Positions 14,157 to 28,450 of a stretch of DNA of 64,000 nt are shown piece by piece. How positions within the stretch are numbered: the first letter of the stretch is position 1; each line of letters opens with the position of its first letter. The DNA is taken from the NCBI GenBank assembly GCA_016930515.1, contig JAFGGO010000108.1, positions 1-64,000 on the forward strand, given 5' to 3'. Source of the stretch: Promethearchaeota archaeon (lineage in GTDB: Archaea; Asgardarchaeota; Lokiarchaeia; Sigyniarchaeales; SOKP01). The notes beneath the pieces were generated by a model, which saw only the letters and a list, made by a program, of their open reading frames with translations, did no database searches and was not told where the DNA came from. The translations under genes were made by a program, and so were the position numbers.

Positions 14157-16208
14157 TTGAATGTCTCTAACTATTTTTCATCCAACGAAAAGTGGCAGAT
14201 TAACAACTTTTCAAAAGATGAACTGCTCGGAGTTAAACAAAAACTTGTCGATCTGAAAGAAAAAAGCACGGATAAACAAGAAATTGACGAATTTGTCGAA
14301 CAAAGCTTATTCAATCAACAAATACTCGAAAGGTTCACGCGTTATCTCTCTTATGCTGATGAACTCACTCGTTATTTAAAACAAAAGAATTACAGGCTTC
14401 CTTTAACAGTTCTCACAGGTCAATTGAAGGATCAAATTGAACTCATATTAAAAAGTCTTTCCAATCTTATTCAAAACGCCCGAAATATAAAAAGATTCTT
14501 AAAAGACACCTCCTTTATAGATGAATTGCTAAAGCCAAGCCAAATCATGTCAGATAAATGTAAAGAAATGATCTTGGAACTCGATACTTTTAAAAACTAC
14601 GAAAATCCAATATCTTCTGATGATATTGAATTATGGATCGATATAAATAAGATAAAAGACAATAATATAACACTTCAAGGCATACCTGATACTTTAAAGG
14701 CTTGGGACGAAATTCTCGAAATTAAGAATTATTTTGAATCTCTCACCAATATAGACAATAAGAAGAAAAAAAAAGGTATTGTTCATTCAATACGATTTTC
14801 AGACCTTTTCGATTTTCTCGTAACTAAATCAAAAGAACAAAAAAAAATTTTTGCTAATTTCGTTTACTTGCTACGAGAACAGGATATAATTCGCGAGTTC
14901 GAAGATGAGTTTATAAATGTCCATTTAAAAAAGGAAATTACTAAAGCTCTGAAGGATTTAATCGTTCCCATTTTTTCCAAAGTTGTTAAGGAAAAACTAA
15001 ATGTTATCGTGGAAGAAACAATGGATGTCGACAAGCTTGCACCTCTTGGTGAAGATCAACAACATTTAGATGCAAGAGAATTACTAGAACAAAAATTAAG
15101 TGCTTTCCTCCCCCACCTTGCTTCATATTATTGTACTGGGCTTGAAAAAAAATATCAAGATATTATTAACGAAGTTGACGATTTAAATGAATTTAACAAC
15201 ATAATCGAGAATTACTCCTCTAAGATCGATATTTTCATTTCTATTATCAATTCAATTGAAGGAAAAGTCAAAATATTAGAATATTTACTCGAACCATACA
15301 AAAAAATAACGGAATCACTACGGAAAATTCTAACAAACTTGATTTCTGAGTTAGAAAGGAGGAAAAGCGAATACGAATATTATTTGAAAACCATAAAAAA
15401 GGAACGGTTAAGGGACAACATTAACTCTTTTGTTTCTGACCAAATTAAAAAACTCAACGAATATATTAGCGAATACGAGGACCAAACATCACTATTGATT
15501 CGAGAAGAATTTCCCCAAATAAAAAAAATGAGAAAAATCCTTGGTAATTGCAAAGAAAACATCCAGGAACTCAAAGCCGAGATTCACGCAAAATTAGATT
15601 CAGTAAAAAATAAAGACCTCGATATTCACCAAATAATTAAGCGATGGGAAGACAATTATAACAAGAAGAAAAATCAATTAAATTTCCTTTTATCGCTTAT
15701 GTTTACAAAAATATTTAAAAATTTCAAAGAAATCATCGAAGAGGAAGAATCCTTTTTTGATAATATCGCAGATATCACTAATCAAGACAATTCTCTTGAT
15801 GATTTGCCGCTTAATTTTACTTTATCGAGCGTTGTTGCGGATAAGATGACTGACGAAGAATTAAAAGACCGGTTAACTGAATTAAAAGCACGAATTAGCA
15901 AGAACGAAAAGACCATTGAACTTTATCAGAAAGAAATGTCAAAAATGGAAGATATCTTAGAAACTCGCGTGAAGTTGAGAGAAGGTATCACGGACTCAAA
16001 TGTAAAATGCGCTGTATGCCATCAACTAATTAAGTTTGGAAAAGAAAACCTCATAAAATGTCCGTTCTGTGAGAGTGCCTACCACTATCTCTGCGTGGCC
16101 TCTTGGTTAGCAAAACACAATGCTTGCCCTACCTGCCAGAATGTATTTTTGGATCCAAATTCAAACTTCTTCGATGTGCAAGAAGAAGAAGAAAATAGCC
16201 ATATATAA
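14157..16208 (+). CDS. long coiled-coil protein with C-terminal RING-type zinc finger
   Basis: A 683-residue protein that is mostly charged alpha-helix with coiled-coil segments, ending (about residues 618-665) in a RING/H2-type finger: CAVCHQLIKFGKENLIKCPF, then C-x6-H-x2-C in CESAYHYLCVASW, and CPTC. This spacing is that of ubiquitin-ligase RING domains, and Asgard genomes carry ubiquitin-system genes including small RING proteins. An E3-ligase or scaffold role is inferred; no ubiquitin, E1 or E2 gene is in the window. Translation begins at TTG 14157 just after an in-frame TAA. The proteasome subunit is the preceding gene on the same strand, 91 bp away. Confidence 0.75.
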   Translation: MNVSNYFSSNEKWQINNFSKDELLGVKQKLVDLKEKSTDKQEIDEFVEQSLFNQQILERFTRYLSYADELTRYLKQKNYRLPLTVLTGQLKDQIELILKSLSNLIQNARNIKRFLKDTSFIDELLKPSQIMSDKCKEMILELDTFKNYENPISSDDIELWIDINKIKDNNITLQGIPDTLKAWDEILEIKNYFESLTNIDNKKKKKGIVHSIRFSDLFDFLVTKSKEQKKIFANFVYLLREQDIIREFEDEFINVHLKKEITKALKDLIVPIFSKVVKEKLNVIVEETMDVDKLAPLGEDQQHLDARELLEQKLSAFLPHLASYYCTGLEKKYQDIINEVDDLNEFNNIIENYSSKIDIFISIINSIEGKVKILEYLLEPYKKITESLRKILTNLISELERRKSEYEYYLKTIKKERLRDNINSFVSDQIKKLNEYISEYEDQTSLLIREEFPQIKKMRKILGNCKENIQELKAEIHAKLDSVKNKDLDIHQIIKRWEDNYNKKKNQLNFLLSLMFTKIFKNFKEIIEEEESFFDNIADITNQDNSLDDLPLNFTLSSVVADKMTDEELKDRLTELKARISKNEKTIELYQKEMSKMEDILETRVKLREGITDSNVKCAVCHQLIKFGKENLIKCPFCESAYHYLCVASWLAKHNACPTCQNVFLDPNSNFFDVQEEEENSHI

Positions 16209-16954: not shown

Positions 16955-18211
16955 ATGTCGATCAAAAACGAATTGAAAATAATAGGAGAATATGCTAAAA
17001 AAGCGGCTTTTGAATTAAAGAACACTCCTACATCAATTAAGGACAATGCTTTACTTCGGATGGCCGATCTTCTAGAAGATAAAGCGAAATTAATTATTGA
17101 AGCAAACAAAATAGATCTTCAAAATGCCCGTAATAACGGTCTCGAACAAGCTAAAGTCGATAGACTTGTCTTGAACACTGATAAAATCCATAAGATAGCG
17201 GAAGGTTTGAGAGAAGTATCTGCTCTCCCTGATCCAATCAACGAAGTAATCTCGATGTGGAGAAGACCAAATGGATTGGATATTGGACTTATACGAGTTC
17301 CATTGGGCGTCATCGGTATTATTTACGAATCAAGACCGAATGTGACTGCCGAAAGTACTAGCTTGGCTTTAAAAGCAGGGAATGCCATCGTTTTAAGAGG
17401 TGGTAGCGAAGCTATTAATTCAAATATCGCTATTGCAGATATACTCCACGAGGCTGCAACACTAGAAGGCTTGCCCGAACATTGCATTCAAATTGTCCGC
17501 AAGACTGATAGGGCTTATGTAGGCGAAATGCTTCGCTTAAAAGATTATATCGATGTCATTATTCCAAGAGGTGGTGCTTCACTGATACAAAGGGTCGTGC
17601 AACACTCTTTAGTTCCAACAATAGAAACGGGGATAGGTATCGTGAGTTTGTTTGTAAATAAGGATGCAGATTTAGATATAGCAGAAAAAATCGTTATAAA
17701 TTCTAAATGCTCGTATCCCGCAGTTTGCAACGCTTTAGATAAACTCTTATTGCATGAGGATTTAAAGGAATCTTTCGTGGAAAGAATCGTCAAATCTTTA
17801 AGAAATAACGGCGTAGAGGTTATGGGATGTGAACAAACTCAAAAAATTGTCGCCGATGTGATACCTGCAACGGAGGATGACTGGGGGGCAGAATATTTGT
17901 CGTTAAAAATTTGCATTCGGATCGTTAAGGATATTGACGAGGCCATACAAATAATAACCAAATACGATTCAAAACACACGGAATCTATCATTACTGAGAA
18001 TTACAAAGACGCAAGAAAATTCTTAGACCGGGTTGACGCCGCAGCCGTCTATGTAAATGCCGCAACCCGTCTAACTGATGGTGGTGTTTTTGGTTTAGGA
18101 GCAGAAATAGGCATCTCAACGCAAAAACTTCACGCAAGGGGTCCAATGGGAGTGAAGCAACTCACTTCTACAAAATACATAATCTACGGAAGCGGTCAAA
18201 TTCGAGAGTAA
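16955..18211 (+). CDS. proA: gamma-glutamyl phosphate reductase (glutamate-5-semialdehyde dehydrogenase)
   Basis: A 418-residue aldehyde-dehydrogenase-fold enzyme that reduces gamma-glutamyl phosphate to glutamate semialdehyde, the second step of proline synthesis. Family blocks are GVIGIIYESRPNVTAE, LKAGNAIVLRGGSEA, the catalytic cysteine C258 in YPAVCNALDKLLLH, and VDAAAVYVNAATRLTDGG with FGLGAEIGISTQKLHARGPM at the C-terminus. Length is usual for ProA. A LysE-type transporter follows 21 nt later on the same strand. The partner kinase proB is 5 kb away on the opposite strand. Confidence 0.95.
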   Translation: MSIKNELKIIGEYAKKAAFELKNTPTSIKDNALLRMADLLEDKAKLIIEANKIDLQNARNNGLEQAKVDRLVLNTDKIHKIAEGLREVSALPDPINEVISMWRRPNGLDIGLIRVPLGVIGIIYESRPNVTAESTSLALKAGNAIVLRGGSEAINSNIAIADILHEAATLEGLPEHCIQIVRKTDRAYVGEMLRLKDYIDVIIPRGGASLIQRVVQHSLVPTIETGIGIVSLFVNKDADLDIAEKIVINSKCSYPAVCNALDKLLLHEDLKESFVERIVKSLRNNGVEVMGCEQTQKIVADVIPATEDDWGAEYLSLKICIRIVKDIDEAIQIITKYDSKHTESIITENYKDARKFLDRVDAAAVYVNAATRLTDGGVFGLGAEIGISTQKLHARGPMGVKQLTSTKYIIYGSGQIRE

Positions 18212-18232: not shown

Positions 18233-18889
18233 ATGTTAGAAATATTTCTTTTTTCTTTTTTAGTTGCCCTAACTGGTGCGTTATCGCCTGGCCCCGTAAT
18301 GACATTTACTGTTTATAAATCTCTACGAGAAAAAAAAGGGTATCTTTCGGGATTGTTCATAACATTGGGACACGCAAGCTTGGAATTTCTTCTCGTCATA
18401 CTATTGTTATTAGGTGCTCAAGTCTTTTTTCAAAACCAGATTGTATTGTTGATAATTGGAATCGTTGGAGGTACTGTATTGGTAATTTTTGGTATCATGA
18501 CAATTCAAGGTATTCGATCCAAGAATTACGAAATCGATTTTTTTCAAGAGCAAGAAGAATTAAAGGGATTTCGGGGTAATAGTTTTTTAGGAGGTATCGT
18601 GGTAAGCCTATCGAATCCTTTTTGGACATTTTGGTGGGCAGTAATTGGGTTGGGATTTATGATTAATTTTAACATTAGTTTTAGTAATCCTTTAGGTTTA
18701 TTGTTATTTTATCTCGGGCACGAGCTTGGAGATCTCGTCTTTTATGTACCATTATCTGCTTTTACTTATTTAGGTGGCAAGTCGCTCAACCCAAGGGTTT
18801 ACAAGTGGGTGCTCATCATCTGTGCAGGTTTTATGATTTTTTTTGGGGTATACATGGTGTTTAACATCGTATTTTTTCCCCCTTATTAG
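18233..18889 (+). CDS. LysE/RhtB-family exporter
   Basis: A 218-residue integral membrane protein with about six hydrophobic segments. The N-terminal GALSPGPVMTFTVYKSL is the LysE-family signature; the polar loop near residues 100-115 and the NPFWTFWWAVIGLG segment are also typical. Family members export amino acids (lysine, threonine, homoserine) or related metabolites. It follows proA by 21 nt, so export of proline or related amino acids is a reasonable but untested guess. The stop is TAG. Confidence 0.85.
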   Translation: MLEIFLFSFLVALTGALSPGPVMTFTVYKSLREKKGYLSGLFITLGHASLEFLLVILLLLGAQVFFQNQIVLLIIGIVGGTVLVIFGIMTIQGIRSKNYEIDFFQEQEELKGFRGNSFLGGIVVSLSNPFWTFWWAVIGLGFMINFNISFSNPLGLLLFYLGHELGDLVFYVPLSAFTYLGGKSLNPRVYKWVLIICAGFMIFFGVYMVFNIVFFPPY

Positions 18890-19250: not shown

Positions 19251-22200
19251 TTAAACCCGATACAGTTCAAATACTTCGTCGACTAAGTATCCAGCGTTAC
19301 TGAAGGATGTGAGTTCTCCCCTCCAGTTTTTCAAGTTGGATTTATAATATTTTTCAAACTTTGTTACGAATATCTTTTGTTTTTCCCGAATCCACTCGGA
19401 TCCCTTCCCGTCAATAAATAACGCAACTAGGATATTCTCGCCTTGTTCTAACATGATTTCAAATTCTTGGTAGGCCATTTTTTCAATAGGGATTCTCTTT
19501 TTTTTAATCTCGAGACTGAAGTCTTGAATTGCTGTTAAAAACCCCCCAATTAGATCAGAGTCTACTTGCCAGTCTCCTAATTTCCTATTATATATGGTTG
19601 CACCTACTTGGTTGTGGATGACAATAATATATCTCAACCCTAAAATTTCTTTCTTAATAGGATCCTTTTCCTTGATAATCTTGTCTTTCATTGCGTTCTT
19701 TTTTATTGTTGATAATTCTTCGAGTTGTCCCATCAACCTTAGCGTATTATTCTTAGAGTCAAGTTCCCCAAATAAGCGAGCGTTTGAAATCAGGTCAATC
19801 AGTTTGAGTTTTAATTGTTTGGGTTTTACTTTCATCATCTCGCTTAAGGAATGCAAGTCAATCCGCTTTCCCTTGAAAGCGTTAACATAATATTCCACCT
19901 TTTTAATGAAAAATATCTCGCTAATTTTATAAAATATGGTATCAACAGAGAGCTCTATTGAGGATTTAGAAGATTTCCATTGGTCTATCTCTTTTTCAAC
20001 AGAACTTTTAAATGTTTTATAGTTCCTCGATTCCAATTTAATATAATCCTTGATTGTATCGTCTAAGCTTTTGATCAAATTTTTAATATGTGCGACTTCG
20101 GAATTGAATTTAAGTTCAAAATCACCGATATTTCTCTTAAATTTAAGAACTTCGCTATAATTGGCTTCGAGTTGGGTTATCTTTTTTTCAATCTCTCCTT
20201 TTCCTGAGCTAATTAATTCGCTTAATTCTGATTTCTTTTCGATAGATCCGGTCGTGTCTAGTTCTCGTGCTAAAAGCTGCTCAATTTCATCTAATTCAAC
20301 TGAAATCTTTTCCTTTTCGTTTTCCCAATGGGTGATTAACTCCTTTTCAATTTCACTGATCCCACTGAATTGTTCGATAGATTCCTGGAGGAACAATTTA
20401 AAATCTCTGTCGTAAATTTTAAGTTTTTGATTAATTTCGATTTGCATTTCTTTTCTCTTTGTTTCTGCGTCGTTAAAATTCTTTACCTTTATTAATGCCT
20501 CAGTCGTTAATTTCAAGTTCTCCATGAGCCATTTTAAGTCTCCCTCGTAATCATCAAGTTTTTTAAATAATTCTTCTCTACGGACAATATCCAAGCCTGA
20601 ATATATCCTATTACCCAATTCCTCAGAGATTTGCTTCCATTTTACTTCTTCTTCCTTTAATTTTTCGTCCCAATTAATCTTGAGATCCGATGAATAATTA
20701 GAAAAAATTTCGACTTTTTGCTCGATACCTGAAAGGAGTTGAAAAAACGCCTCGTTTTCGACTTGACTTAAATTCTTAAAATTTTCGTTCCTCTCGTTTA
20801 AAAAATCTGAGCTTTTTTTTAGCTCGTTATTATTAATTAAACTAATTATCTGGATGCTGTTATCGTCAAAAAAATGCTGTAGCTTTAATATCTTACTTGA
20901 GATATATTTTTTTACTTCCTTGCGGTTTTTTATTACTTGTTCGTATAAATCTAAATGTCTTTCAGCGTTTAGTTTTATTCCGTTCCAAGAGTTCTTTACT
21001 TCTTCTAATCTTTTTTTATAAGTATCAAATTTCAATGTAGGGGATATGGCTGAAATTTTCGATGTTATATCGAGGTTTGCTTTCTTGATAAACTCTGTAA
21101 GAGTATGAGCTAGTTTCTCAGAGGCTTTTTTCTCGGTTAATTCGATGAGGAATCGTAGTTTTTCAGAGACTTGATCTTTCTGATTCTCTAATTGGTCAAT
21201 AGAAGAGAATTCCTTGCTTTTCTTCGTTCTCTCCGCTATATATTCCTCTTTTTCCTTAATTTCCTCGACTAAATCCTTTATTTCTCTTTTAAGGATACCT
21301 TGAATTATCTTTTTATCCACTTCCCAATCCAACTCTAAATTCGATATAACAAAGGTTGAATTTACAAAACGATGATTAGATTTAACTTGATAAATGAGAC
21401 TATCAATTTTTCTGGTTCTTATTCCAATATATTCTCCCATTTCGTTAACTTTTTCTTTTGCTTCAAAAATATTTTCAGAATCGATCGATAAACGAGATTG
21501 ATTTGCTTGGAAATCGATATATTCAACGGAGTGATGTTGTATGTTCCTCAATTGTAAGATAATATCCTTTATACGCATTTTTTCGCCAAGTATCTCTCGA
21601 TAAAGAACGGGCGATTCAAGGTGGATATATTCTTTTAAAACAGCAAAATCCACAAAAAGGCTTTTCTTTCTCGAGGATTGAATGTTTCCCATTAAAAAAT
21701 TATTTATTAGCAGGTCGTTTATTACTAATTTCACGCGTTCTAAAGCGTTAGAAAAGGAAAATTGCTTGCTAAACTCGTTTAAATCGATCTGCTTGCTCTT
21801 TGGATTTTTTATTATAAATTCCATGAGCTTCGTAATTATTTCTCTGGGGATAATATTTTGGAAATTGAGATATTTGTCGTAGAGGGATTCTTTATCTAAT
21901 ATCGTTCCTTCTAACCATTTATTTGAAATAAGCCAATTTGCGATGTTTTTAACGAGTTCTGGACTCACCAAATAATTCTTACTGATTGGAAAGAAATAGA
22001 TATTAGCTTTTTCTCGCGAAGAAAGCACGATTTCGGTTTCAATCATATCTATTATTTCGTTCCAGATGTAATACATCACGAGAATGGCTCTCGTACTACT
22101 AACTAGATCTTGTTCCTTTACGCTAATGCTGGTGTATTGATTGGTAAATCCTCCATTATCTTGTTGCATCGTTTTTAAAAAGTGAATTAGGTCTCTAAAA

Positions 22201-22961
22201 TCAACACCTTTTAATTTGCCAATTAAACCCAATAATGTTATGGCCCAATATAAATATTCCACTGAAGGATACTCGTCACTTATTTTAAGTCCGAGTTTAA
22301 ATATTTTCAATTTTTGAATTTTTTTATCAATATTAATTCCTTCAATATCTTCAAGTAATATTAGGCAAAATAAGTGATAAAAAGATTCAATATCATTTAT
22401 TGGTTTAAATTTTTTCAAAAAAGAAGTTATCTTTCGCTTATTAATCTTTTTCACTCCATTCAATAGGTATAGAGCGGAAAGAGAGTAAAAAGTAGCTTTT
22501 ATTGAGGATGTACCTTGACAATCTATCGGGCATTGACTTGAAGTACAATGAATAAATCCCCCATCCTCTTTTGACTCTATCTTTTGTGATTTTAGCACAT
22601 ATATAATGTCTTTTTGTTCGATAAAGTCATCAAATCCCAATAGTTTTAATGTTCCAATGCAATAAAAGGTGCTATAAATATCTGCTTGGTCCGAAGAAAC
22701 AGAAGCCCTGTGGCCTCCTAAAGGATGTTTTAAATCTACGATATATTTTTTAACGAGATTCTTGTTGGTAATTAGATCTATTTTATCCATTTGAGAAAGT
22801 AAAAGTACTGTCCAGAACAGAGATTCGCTAGAATTGTACATGTTTCCATTTAAAATGTTGTTTTGAACGAATTCCATTGCTTTTTCAATATTAATTGGGA
22901 TTGGTAACTTATTTTCACAATACATAAGTTCTGGAATCCAAGGAATATGGAATGAAATCAT
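19251..22961 (-). CDS. giant protein: prenyltransferase-type toroid, long coiled coil, winged helix and longin-like domain
   Basis: A 1236-residue single-frame protein. Residues about 20-320 contain repeats of the prenyltransferase/squalene-cyclase alpha-alpha toroid: PLGGHRASVSSDQADIYSTF, DGGFIHCTSSQCP, then GTSSIKATFYSLSALYLLNG, and QQDNGGFTNQYTS. The His/Cys/Asp zinc set of active protein prenyltransferases is not obvious. Helical, winged-helix-like segments follow (about 340-480), then about 500 residues of coiled coil. Around residues 1015-1075 (KVEYYVNAFKGKRIDLHSLS and onward) lies a PCI-like winged helix. The last 150 residues, starting LRYIIVIHNQVGATIYNRKL, look like a longin/roadblock-type domain. 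The combination suggests a scaffold linked to small GTPases or membranes, by inference from domain types only. Confidence 0.75.
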   Translation of the reverse strand: MISFHIPWIPELMYCENKLPIPINIEKAMEFVQNNILNGNMYNSSESLFWTVLLLSQMDKIDLITNKNLVKKYIVDLKHPLGGHRASVSSDQADIYSTFYCIGTLKLLGFDDFIEQKDIIYVLKSQKIESKEDGGFIHCTSSQCPIDCQGTSSIKATFYSLSALYLLNGVKKINKRKITSFLKKFKPINDIESFYHLFCLILLEDIEGINIDKKIQKLKIFKLGLKISDEYPSVEYLYWAITLLGLIGKLKGVDFRDLIHFLKTMQQDNGGFTNQYTSISVKEQDLVSSTRAILVMYYIWNEIIDMIETEIVLSSREKANIYFFPISKNYLVSPELVKNIANWLISNKWLEGTILDKESLYDKYLNFQNIIPREIITKLMEFIIKNPKSKQIDLNEFSKQFSFSNALERVKLVINDLLINNFLMGNIQSSRKKSLFVDFAVLKEYIHLESPVLYREILGEKMRIKDIILQLRNIQHHSVEYIDFQANQSRLSIDSENIFEAKEKVNEMGEYIGIRTRKIDSLIYQVKSNHRFVNSTFVISNLELDWEVDKKIIQGILKREIKDLVEEIKEKEEYIAERTKKSKEFSSIDQLENQKDQVSEKLRFLIELTEKKASEKLAHTLTEFIKKANLDITSKISAISPTLKFDTYKKRLEEVKNSWNGIKLNAERHLDLYEQVIKNRKEVKKYISSKILKLQHFFDDNSIQIISLINNNELKKSSDFLNERNENFKNLSQVENEAFFQLLSGIEQKVEIFSNYSSDLKINWDEKLKEEEVKWKQISEELGNRIYSGLDIVRREELFKKLDDYEGDLKWLMENLKLTTEALIKVKNFNDAETKRKEMQIEINQKLKIYDRDFKLFLQESIEQFSGISEIEKELITHWENEKEKISVELDEIEQLLARELDTTGSIEKKSELSELISSGKGEIEKKITQLEANYSEVLKFKRNIGDFELKFNSEVAHIKNLIKSLDDTIKDYIKLESRNYKTFKSSVEKEIDQWKSSKSSIELSVDTIFYKISEIFFIKKVEYYVNAFKGKRIDLHSLSEMMKVKPKQLKLKLIDLISNARLFGELDSKNNTLRLMGQLEELSTIKKNAMKDKIIKEKDPIKKEILGLRYIIVIHNQVGATIYNRKLGDWQVDSDLIGGFLTAIQDFSLEIKKKRIPIEKMAYQEFEIMLEQGENILVALFIDGKGSEWIREKQKIFVTKFEKYYKSNLKNWRGELTSFSNAGYLVDEVFELYRV

Positions 22962-23131: not shown

Positions 23132-23923
23132 TTATTTTTGAGCATTAAAAAAAGTACCTTTCTCTTCTCCAGTTAGAATTTTTTTTATAATAGATTCTTC
23201 ATCAAATGAGGTTATTATCGCTGGAATGCCAATATTCGTTAACTTCTTTATTGCGTTGATTTTGCTTTTCATTCCTCCAAATGTGATTCCTCCGTCGATG
23301 TCATCAACTACTTTTTCGATGTCCTCGGTGATACTATTTACATTTGTTATTAATTTTGCTCCAAGGTGTTTTTTTGGATTTTTATCGTATAAACCATTAA
23401 CATCTGTAAGGATAATCAATAAATCAACATATAATAGTGTTGCGACTAAAGCCGAAAGAGTGTCATTATCTCCGTGTCGGAGTTCCTCAATTGCAACGGA
23501 GTCGTTTTCATTAATGATTGGTACAATATTTTTTTCAAGAAGAACCTCGAGAGTATTCCTCACATTAGATCTTCTCTTAGCATCCTTAGTATCGTCTGCG
23601 GTAAGTAATATTTGACCAATGTTCAAGCCGTACTTGTTGAATTCATTTTGATAAGTACTCATTAAGGCGATTTGACCCACTGAAGCAAGCGCCTGAAGCA
23701 TTTTAAAATCCTTTGGACGATTTATCAAACCTAATCGAGCTAGTCCACATCCTATAGCCCCACTACTGACTATTACAACGGAACGCCCTTCAAGAACTAT
23801 CTCAGATACTTCCTTGACCAATTTGCTTATTTTATCCTCATATATTCTTGCCTTTCCGTCAGTAATGAGTTGGGTGCTCACTTTAATGACTATAGTCTTA
23901 ACATTTGAAAGAACGCTTCTCAT
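23132..23923 (-). CDS. proB: glutamate 5-kinase (without PUA domain)
   Basis: A 263-residue amino acid kinase that phosphorylates glutamate at the start of proline synthesis. Visible motifs: VIKVSTQLIT at the N-terminus, VIVSSGAIGCGLARLG, the substrate region NENDSVAIEELRHGDND with LSALVATLLYVDLLIILTDV, and GGMKSKINAIKKL near residue 215. Bacterial ProB is about 367 residues with a C-terminal PUA domain; this one ends after the kinase fold. A shortened kinase-only form is known in some lineages. It is separated from proA by the exporter and the giant gene. Confidence 0.9.
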   Translation of the reverse strand: MRSVLSNVKTIVIKVSTQLITDGKARIYEDKISKLVKEVSEIVLEGRSVVIVSSGAIGCGLARLGLINRPKDFKMLQALASVGQIALMSTYQNEFNKYGLNIGQILLTADDTKDAKRRSNVRNTLEVLLEKNIVPIINENDSVAIEELRHGDNDTLSALVATLLYVDLLIILTDVNGLYDKNPKKHLGAKLITNVNSITEDIEKVVDDIDGGITFGGMKSKINAIKKLTNIGIPAIITSFDEESIIKKILTGEEKGTFFNAQK

Positions 23924-27460: not shown

Positions 27461-28450
27461 ATGAAGATTTATTTAGTCGACAAGGGAGAACTCAAGCAAA
27501 TTGACAAGTTAGTGTTTTCTACAGGCGATGTATACTTAATCGACGACGAAAAGACCATTTTCATATGGATTGGGAGCAAGTGTAGCGTTGACGAGAAAAC
27601 TAGTGGTGCCGCTCAAGCACGAAAGCTCGATCAAGAGCGTGGAGGTGCGGCTAAGATAATAACGGTTGATCAAAATCAAGAAACTGCTGAATTCCTCAAG
27701 CTCATTGCGAGCAAGGGTACTATGAAAATCGTGGAAAAAAATATTGCCAAGACTATGTTGAAAGATGTGATGACAGGCGATTTTGCTGGTTTTACAGAAC
27801 ATGTAAATGTACTTTATCGGGTTTCCTCCGAAGAGTTCGAAGACATCAATGCGATGAAAATGATACAAGTTCCGTTTTCGAAAGACTCGTTGGATTCCGA
27901 AGATTGTTTCGTGTTAGATATGGGTACGGATGTGTATGTTTGGCAAGGAAATGCTTGCAATGTAAAGGAAAGGGTCAAATCTGGCCAATGGGCAAGACAA
28001 ATTGATGCGGATCGCGCAGGAGAGCAAAACAAAACCATTTGTGAAGAAGGCGACGATGCGGCTTTTCTTTCAGCTTTAAGCAAGGGTGAACACTACAAGG
28101 AATCTGACGCCGTCCAACTTTCTGCTGATTCTGATTTAGAAAAGGAATCCGAGATGGACAAAATCGCAGCATCCGTTCATAAAGAACACGAGGCGACAAT
28201 TAGTGACGCCGCTCCCGAAACCTCAGAATCAAGCGCGTCTTCTGCCGGACCCGGCATACCCGGATCGTCTGATGGATTACTTACCATCGAAAAGATGGAA
28301 GGTCGTCGGAGGTGTCCAAATTGTGGAAACGAAAACAAGTCTTTAATTCACGAATCTGTTGACAAGGGAAATATTATTCTCGATTATCCACGAATGTATG
28401 GTAAAAAATACAAGTGTGGAGAATGTGGTCAAGAGTGGAGAGAAAAATAA
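27461..28450 (+). CDS. two-domain gelsolin with C-terminal zinc ribbon
   Basis: A 329-residue protein. Two gelsolin-like domains are visible, about residues 1-100 (VYLIDDEKTIFIWIGSKC, then AAQARKLDQERGG) and 108-208 (CFVLDMGTDVYVWQGNACN, then GQWARQIDADRAG). A disordered Ser/Pro-rich linker (about 215-280) leads to a four-cysteine zinc ribbon, RRCPNCGN to KYKCGECGQEW, of the TFIIS type. Two-domain gelsolins from Asgard archaea are known to regulate eukaryotic actin in vitro; Asgard actins are the expected partner. The zinc ribbon suggests an additional nucleic-acid or protein contact. Monocistronic; ATG 27461. Confidence 0.85.
   Translation: MKIYLVDKGELKQIDKLVFSTGDVYLIDDEKTIFIWIGSKCSVDEKTSGAAQARKLDQERGGAAKIITVDQNQETAEFLKLIASKGTMKIVEKNIAKTMLKDVMTGDFAGFTEHVNVLYRVSSEEFEDINAMKMIQVPFSKDSLDSEDCFVLDMGTDVYVWQGNACNVKERVKSGQWARQIDADRAGEQNKTICEEGDDAAFLSALSKGEHYKESDAVQLSADSDLEKESEMDKIAASVHKEHEATISDAAPETSESSASSAGPGIPGSSDGLLTIEKMEGRRRCPNCGNENKSLIHESVDKGNIILDYPRMYGKKYKCGECGQEWREK

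Follow-up and report, generated by a model that had tools for sequence, protein, structure and literature searches.

What might an archaeal protein do that joins the fold of a Rab prenyltransferase to a longin? This is the question raised by a gene in the 64,000-nucleotide stretch of DNA analyzed here (the window), which belongs to a member of Lokiarchaeia, the host group, Asgard, being the archaea closest to eukaryotes. The toroid barrel of RabGGTase attaches lipids to Rab proteins, and the longin is of a type on which small GTPases dock. The source assembly comprises 4.0 Mb in 190 contigs and is 94% complete, with an estimated contamination of 5.3%. The gene starts with ATG and is read without interruption, so that the single large protein recognized in the previous sequence-only reading is encoded by an intact frame (Table 1). 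Longins of Lokiarchaea are known, and some of them are fused to Arf-like GTPases (PMC4917890, PMC10933270), while a review of 2016 reported no detectable coiled-coil domain on them and listed prenyltransferases as absent from Lokiarchaeum; these absences were argued to speak against a eukaryote-like membrane-linked GTPase machinery in that organism (PMC4917890). No description of the succession of toroid, winged helices, rod, winged helix and longin was found in the open-access literature; the architecture appears to be undescribed, its parts being known.

Table 1. Position and composition of the gene and of the domains of its product; coordinates are those of the window.
Feature	Residues	Coordinates	Strand	Composition or basis
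Whole gene	1236 aa	19251..22961	(-)	toroid, two winged helices, helical rod, PCI-like winged helix, longin
RabGGTase-beta-like alpha/alpha toroid without the catalytic ligands	20-317	22011..22904	(-)	Pfam, profile, structure match
H138/C139/C144/C148 cluster, probable metal site	138-148	22518..22550	(-)	insert in toroid repeat 3
Two consecutive winged helices	320-441	21639..22004	(-)	AF2 secondary structure
Helical rod, heptads at about 811-1020	454-1027	19881..21602	(-)	composition, periodicity, AF2
PCI-like winged helix, common to the (probably) membrane-anchored paralogues	1033-1076	19734..19865	(-)	Pfam, AF2, hhalign
Longin domain	1109-1236	19254..19637	(-)	AF2 topology, structure matches, weak profile match

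The N-terminal head is, as first read, an alpha-toroid of the prenyltransferase type. Pfam Prenyltrans matches the protein above its cut-off (3e-13), a search of NCBIfam giving nothing useful. AlphaFold (AF2) models were built for residues 1-630 and 985-1236, the input being the window protein aligned to related loci; in the first of them (pLDDT 83) the toroid helices span residues 25-317, and the model together with structure comparison resolves six alpha hairpins. RabGGTase beta was the top structural match by VIA (Z 26.3, rmsd 2.4 A over 260 residues), the best Foldseek matches were all RabGGTase beta chains (E 6e-9), and the toroid profile retrieved RabGGTB from the PDB sequences at 5e-20. 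Complement-type and terpene-cyclase toroids, considered as the closest fold, ranked clearly below the prenyltransferases. The likeness to RABGGTB (GGTase-II/III) concerns the six-hairpin alpha/alpha toroid itself, whereas the window toroid is fused to winged helices, a rod and a longin, and no alpha subunit was identified for it.

The parallel with Rab prenyltransferases does not, however, extend from fold to function. In RabGGTB, zinc is held by Asp238, Cys240 and His290, and the diphosphate by Arg232 and Lys235 (PMC9141697). These zinc ligands align to S233, E235 and S288 of the window protein, the last pair resting on one alignment, since the global alignment is out of register in the last toroid repeat and puts H290 at residue 327; H260 is the sole histidine between residues 205 and 320. 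In the global alignment R232 corresponds to S228 and K235 to a gap, and toroid repeat 4 lacks its GGF loop. Judged by these replacements, the toroid is predicted to be a non-working prenyltransferase, and, its catalytic zinc ligands being replaced, no prenylation role is supported. An insert in repeat 3, missing from RabGGTB, carries the pattern HC-x4-C-x2-3-C, of which the histidine is kept in 25/25 family members, the first and the second cysteine in 24/25 each and the third in most; D94 is likewise kept in 25/25. This Cys/His insert likely constitutes a new metal site. An extra cysteine-rich, zinc-ribbon-like stretch is inserted within the toroid of one orthologue (L041:2903-6856, genome G052). 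As to toroids on other proteins, one is combined with an ABC ATPase with hydrophobic segments (L050:8696-11974; Prenyltrans 4e-29, ABC_tran 5e-26), and ORFs of 1030-1090 aa with a toroid occur repeatedly in the class.

Two winged helices follow the toroid in the model (320-356 and 358-441), which were missing from the domain list drawn up initially, and long helices begin at residue 454; the same winged-helix module has a match in another Asgard class, within a HEAT-repeat protein. The rod contains one proline in 574 residues, 36% of which are charged, and is helical at both modelled ends. Significant heptad periodicity is confined to approximately its last 200 residues, and of the 500-residue coiled coil proposed earlier it is the long charged rod that stands, the label 'coiled coil' being supported in part. 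The winged helix expected near the C-terminus was found as a Pfam PCI match (5e-6, 27.1 bits against a cut-off of 22) and in the AF2 model of residues 985-1236 (pLDDT 88), which comprises the rod end, the winged helix and a low-confidence linker at about 1081-1098; one long single helix precedes the winged helix in this model, which starts at residue 985.

The C-terminus had been described as longin- or roadblock-like, and the first of these terms was retained. Across residues 1109-1230 the AF2 model shows the order b1-b2-a1-b3-b4-b5-a2-a3, which is that of longins, as are the two C-terminal helices; a weak helix is placed ahead of b1, where roadblocks carry a helix, these having a single helix at the C-terminus. 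The VIA matches, over about 122 residues, were headed by TRAPP Bet3-Trs33-Bet5-Trs23 (Z 13.8), Fuzzy-Inturned (13.6) and Sec22b (13.0), and the sequence profile gave a weak match to AP-4 sigma (E 0.036), AP sigma also having the longin fold. Roadblocks reach Z 12.0, aligning only without the last helix: their alignments end at model residues 223-228, those of longins at about 250. As modelled, the domain is a longin, which fits better, rather than a roadblock. The longins of TRAPP (Bet5/Trs23), CPLANE Fuzzy, the SNAREs Sec22b and VAMP7 and AP sigma/mu share its full topology (Z about 11-14, ~120 residues) at about 5-13% identity only; it differs from them in standing C-terminally after a rod and a winged helix, and from the SNARE longins in that Pfam reported no SNARE motif in the window protein. 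The domain belongs to the large family of Asgard (Lokiarchaeal) longins (PMC4917890, PMC10933270), but it differs from the Loki longins described in 2016 (PMC4917890) in sharing its chain with a toroid and a long helical rod.

Orthologues of the same architecture were found at four further loci (L038, L039, L040 and L041, with identities of 43%, 54% for the partial L039, 39% and 28%), and an architecture so kept across relatives presumably reflects more than chance. A single-sequence search of genome contigs with the window protein found no relative; the family alignment did, and the sister-family relatives retrieved with it were all from Lokiarchaeota or Lokiarchaeia. A profile of residues 1-460 detected relatives (E <= 1e-15) in 71 of the class's 83 genomes, and only four partial matches were obtained outside the class (227 phylum genomes searched). 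Most sister ORFs have about 1415-1504 residues and the same body of toroid, winged helices, rod and winged helix, which is a core protein of the class; the version with the longin, found in only 5 of the 83 genomes, is accessory. Two hydrophobic C-terminal segments occur in 20 of 21 core paralogues and one in the remaining paralogue, as against none of the six longin-bearing members (segments called by Kyte-Doolittle hydropathy alone); these segments are predicted to form a membrane anchor, probably. The C-termini of the core paralogues were searched for a longin, and none was found. The C-terminal winged helix is homologous between the window protein and the core paralogues (hhalign E 8e-6), and the longin stands exactly where a core paralogue carries its probable anchor. 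In a tree that left out the partial sequence of G002, the longin-bearing clade (the window, G001, G052 and G054) received a support of 100/100 and branched among the anchored members. The simplest reading of these comparisons would be that, in the window's clade, a longin took the place of the C-terminal membrane anchor. A tandem copy of 708 aa with rod, winged helix and longin and without a toroid directly follows the orthologue in G054 (L040:12496-14619).

All 58 relatives searched matched the window protein, for the most part in its longin domain, and the window's own genome yielded 34 longin matches. L051:8469-9371 unites in one chain a longin of this family and a GTPase of the Ras/Arf type (Pfam Roc 3e-16, Arf 2e-14), and in L049:4993-5916 a P-loop occupies the place that the GTPase has in that fusion; TPR repeats are also among the partners. 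Elsewhere a hydrophobic segment precedes the start of the longin by about 15-30 residues (L042:3827-8287, L046, L048, L057), or several transmembrane segments lie ahead of it (L047:709-1926, L052, L053), and G054 has three small proteins with three hydrophobic segments each whose longins are 53-59% identical to that of the window protein (L052/L053). Four of the proteins are receptor-like (L042:3827-8287, L046:5551-10269, L048:6218-8566, L057:7576-10929), consisting of an N-terminal hydrophobic signal, a large region, which in some of them gives weak matches to Ig, macroglobulin or the like, one further transmembrane segment and a longin that is expected to be cytoplasmic. A 428-aa protein of another Asgard class (L199:989-2272, genome G179) has a longin (i-E 2.5e-29) followed by a toroid (Prenyltrans 5e-30), in the reverse order to that of the window protein, a separate joining of the two domains. 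No further longin-toroid fusion was found among the longin ORFs of 420-440 aa of other Asgards, L223-L225 carrying other partners, in one case HEAT-like repeats as judged by eye.

The gene is flanked by proB (23132-23923, (-)) on one side and by genes for a LysE exporter (18233-18889, (+)) and proA (16955-18211, (+)) on the other, and neither a GTPase gene nor a longin gene was seen immediately next to it. Within the genus, proB and proA still lie beside the orthologue in G001, and proA, LysE and a RING-type gene lie near that in G002; since the surroundings differ in G054 and G052, gene context gives no functional hint. No conserved operon link of the core paralogue to GTPases or longins emerged, though the window's genus has longin genes on either side of the anchored paralogue (L047:11496-17964 in the window's own genome and L099 in G002). 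The RING-type gene of the window (14157-16208, (+)) encodes a protein of 683 aa, apparently mostly helical, whose C-terminus bears a RING-H2-like finger (zf-RING_2 at E 2e-5, narrowly missing the cut-off); it is a possible Asgard E3-type protein, kept near the orthologue in G002 with 47% identity. The window also encodes a Gelsolin-repeat protein (27461-28450, (+); 3e-30), the C-terminal cysteine motif of which resembles a zinc ribbon.

For the function of the protein we propose, with about an even chance of being right, an elongated cytosolic tether or adaptor, the foot of which sits at a membrane-proximal GTPase or longin partner. Its head would be a decommissioned toroid of the RabGGTase-beta type with a Cys/His metal site of its own and two winged helices, probably serving as a binding platform; the stalk would be the helical rod of roughly 570 residues; and the foot would consist of the PCI-like winged helix and the longin, the latter standing where the core paralogue has its membrane anchor of two segments. 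Through the longin this foot would dock close to a membrane; its partner there would most likely be a small GTPase of the Ras/Arf-like type, a second longin carried by a transmembrane protein, or both, and the rod could then bridge that site to the ligand of the head. The predicted folds, the ligand loss, the anchor exchange and the presence of the longin family on GTPases and membrane proteins were computed; the binding of a GTPase or partner longin, the ligand of the head and the bridging we infer. Of the GTPase or membrane tether suggested by the sequence-only reading, the probable anchor at the longin's place in the core paralogue and the company the longin family keeps support the tethering, while the protein contains no GTPase domain. 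Against the proposal, longins also serve in SNAREs and adaptor coats, not as GTPase platforms; heptads cover the rod in part; the gene has no GTPase or longin gene as an immediate neighbour; the membrane segments are calls by hydropathy; and the longin version is the accessory one.

A first rival, which we hold unlikely, is an adaptor in receptor signalling: the longin would pair with the cytoplasmic longins of the single-pass receptor-like proteins, and the rod and toroid would scaffold downstream factors with no bridging of membranes. It agrees with the occurrence of the same longin family behind the transmembrane segment in proteins that have a hydrophobic signal at the N-terminus and domains resembling Ig or macroglobulin, and with the dimerization of longins and roadblocks in known structures (PMC10933270), but the toroid and the long rod are left unexplained, and a paralogue that is itself membrane-anchored fits bridging at least equally well. 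The protein could instead act through its PCI-like and other winged helices as the scaffold of a large assembly resembling the proteasome lid, a coat or UFL1, to which longin and toroid would be peripheral; this we consider quite improbable. Three winged helices, one of them a significant PCI match, and the alignment of the modelled rod end and winged helix with chains of the 26S proteasome lid type (Z about 11) point this way; yet the rmsd of that alignment is poor (4.8-6.0), helical matches at such Z can be generic, and the helical-bundle half of a PCI domain was not identified before the winged helix.

Two further explanations turn on the toroid. As a lipid or isoprenoid sensor, the protein would bind archaeal isoprenoid chains or peptide tails in the hydrophobic funnel of the toroid, and the longin and winged helices would report the binding. 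The funnel positions (as defined for RabGGTB, PMC9141697) are partly kept, F147 being F158, Y241 Y236, W243 Y238 and W244 W239 in the window protein; against this, the diphosphate residues are replaced (R232) or missing (K235), the aromatics at 243/244 may be merely structural and Y241 is not conserved in the family, and we regard such a sensor as improbable. Least likely of all, and very improbable, is an active protein prenyltransferase or other transferase working through the new Cys/His site, for which the fold, the closest relatives and the inferred placement of the cluster in a loop ahead of a toroid helix, like that of catalytic ligands, can be adduced. All three catalytic zinc ligands and R232 are lost and the GGF loop is missing, and another paper of 2016, while noting that beta-subunit homologues are common in archaea, found no C-terminal prenylation cysteines on archaeal Rab-like GTPases (PMC4915359).

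The tether or adaptor that we favour would resemble the golgin-type coiled-coil tethers, as generally known, in its long helical rod and in a putative C-terminal attachment to membrane or GTPase (by the probable anchor in the core paralogue), an analogy of layout rather than of sequence, and differs from them in the toroid and winged-helix head and the partial heptads. A bolder version, which we think improbable, would see in the whole a golgin-like tether family of Lokiarchaeia built on a dead RabGGTase-beta toroid, anchored in its core form and docked through longin and GTPase in the window's form, the toroid reading isoprenoid chains or GTPase tails. If this were true, toroid, longin and small GTPase would have worked together before eukaryotic Rab prenylation and longin-based Rab control arose. 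Taken together, a RabGGTase-beta-fold toroid, a helical rod and a longin occur in one chain that has a widespread, probably membrane-anchored sister; the prenyltransferase-beta fold apparently has a non-catalytic role in these Asgard archaea, and the protein offers a testable candidate for the way in which Asgard archaea could attach small GTPases to membranes without the use of lipid tails.
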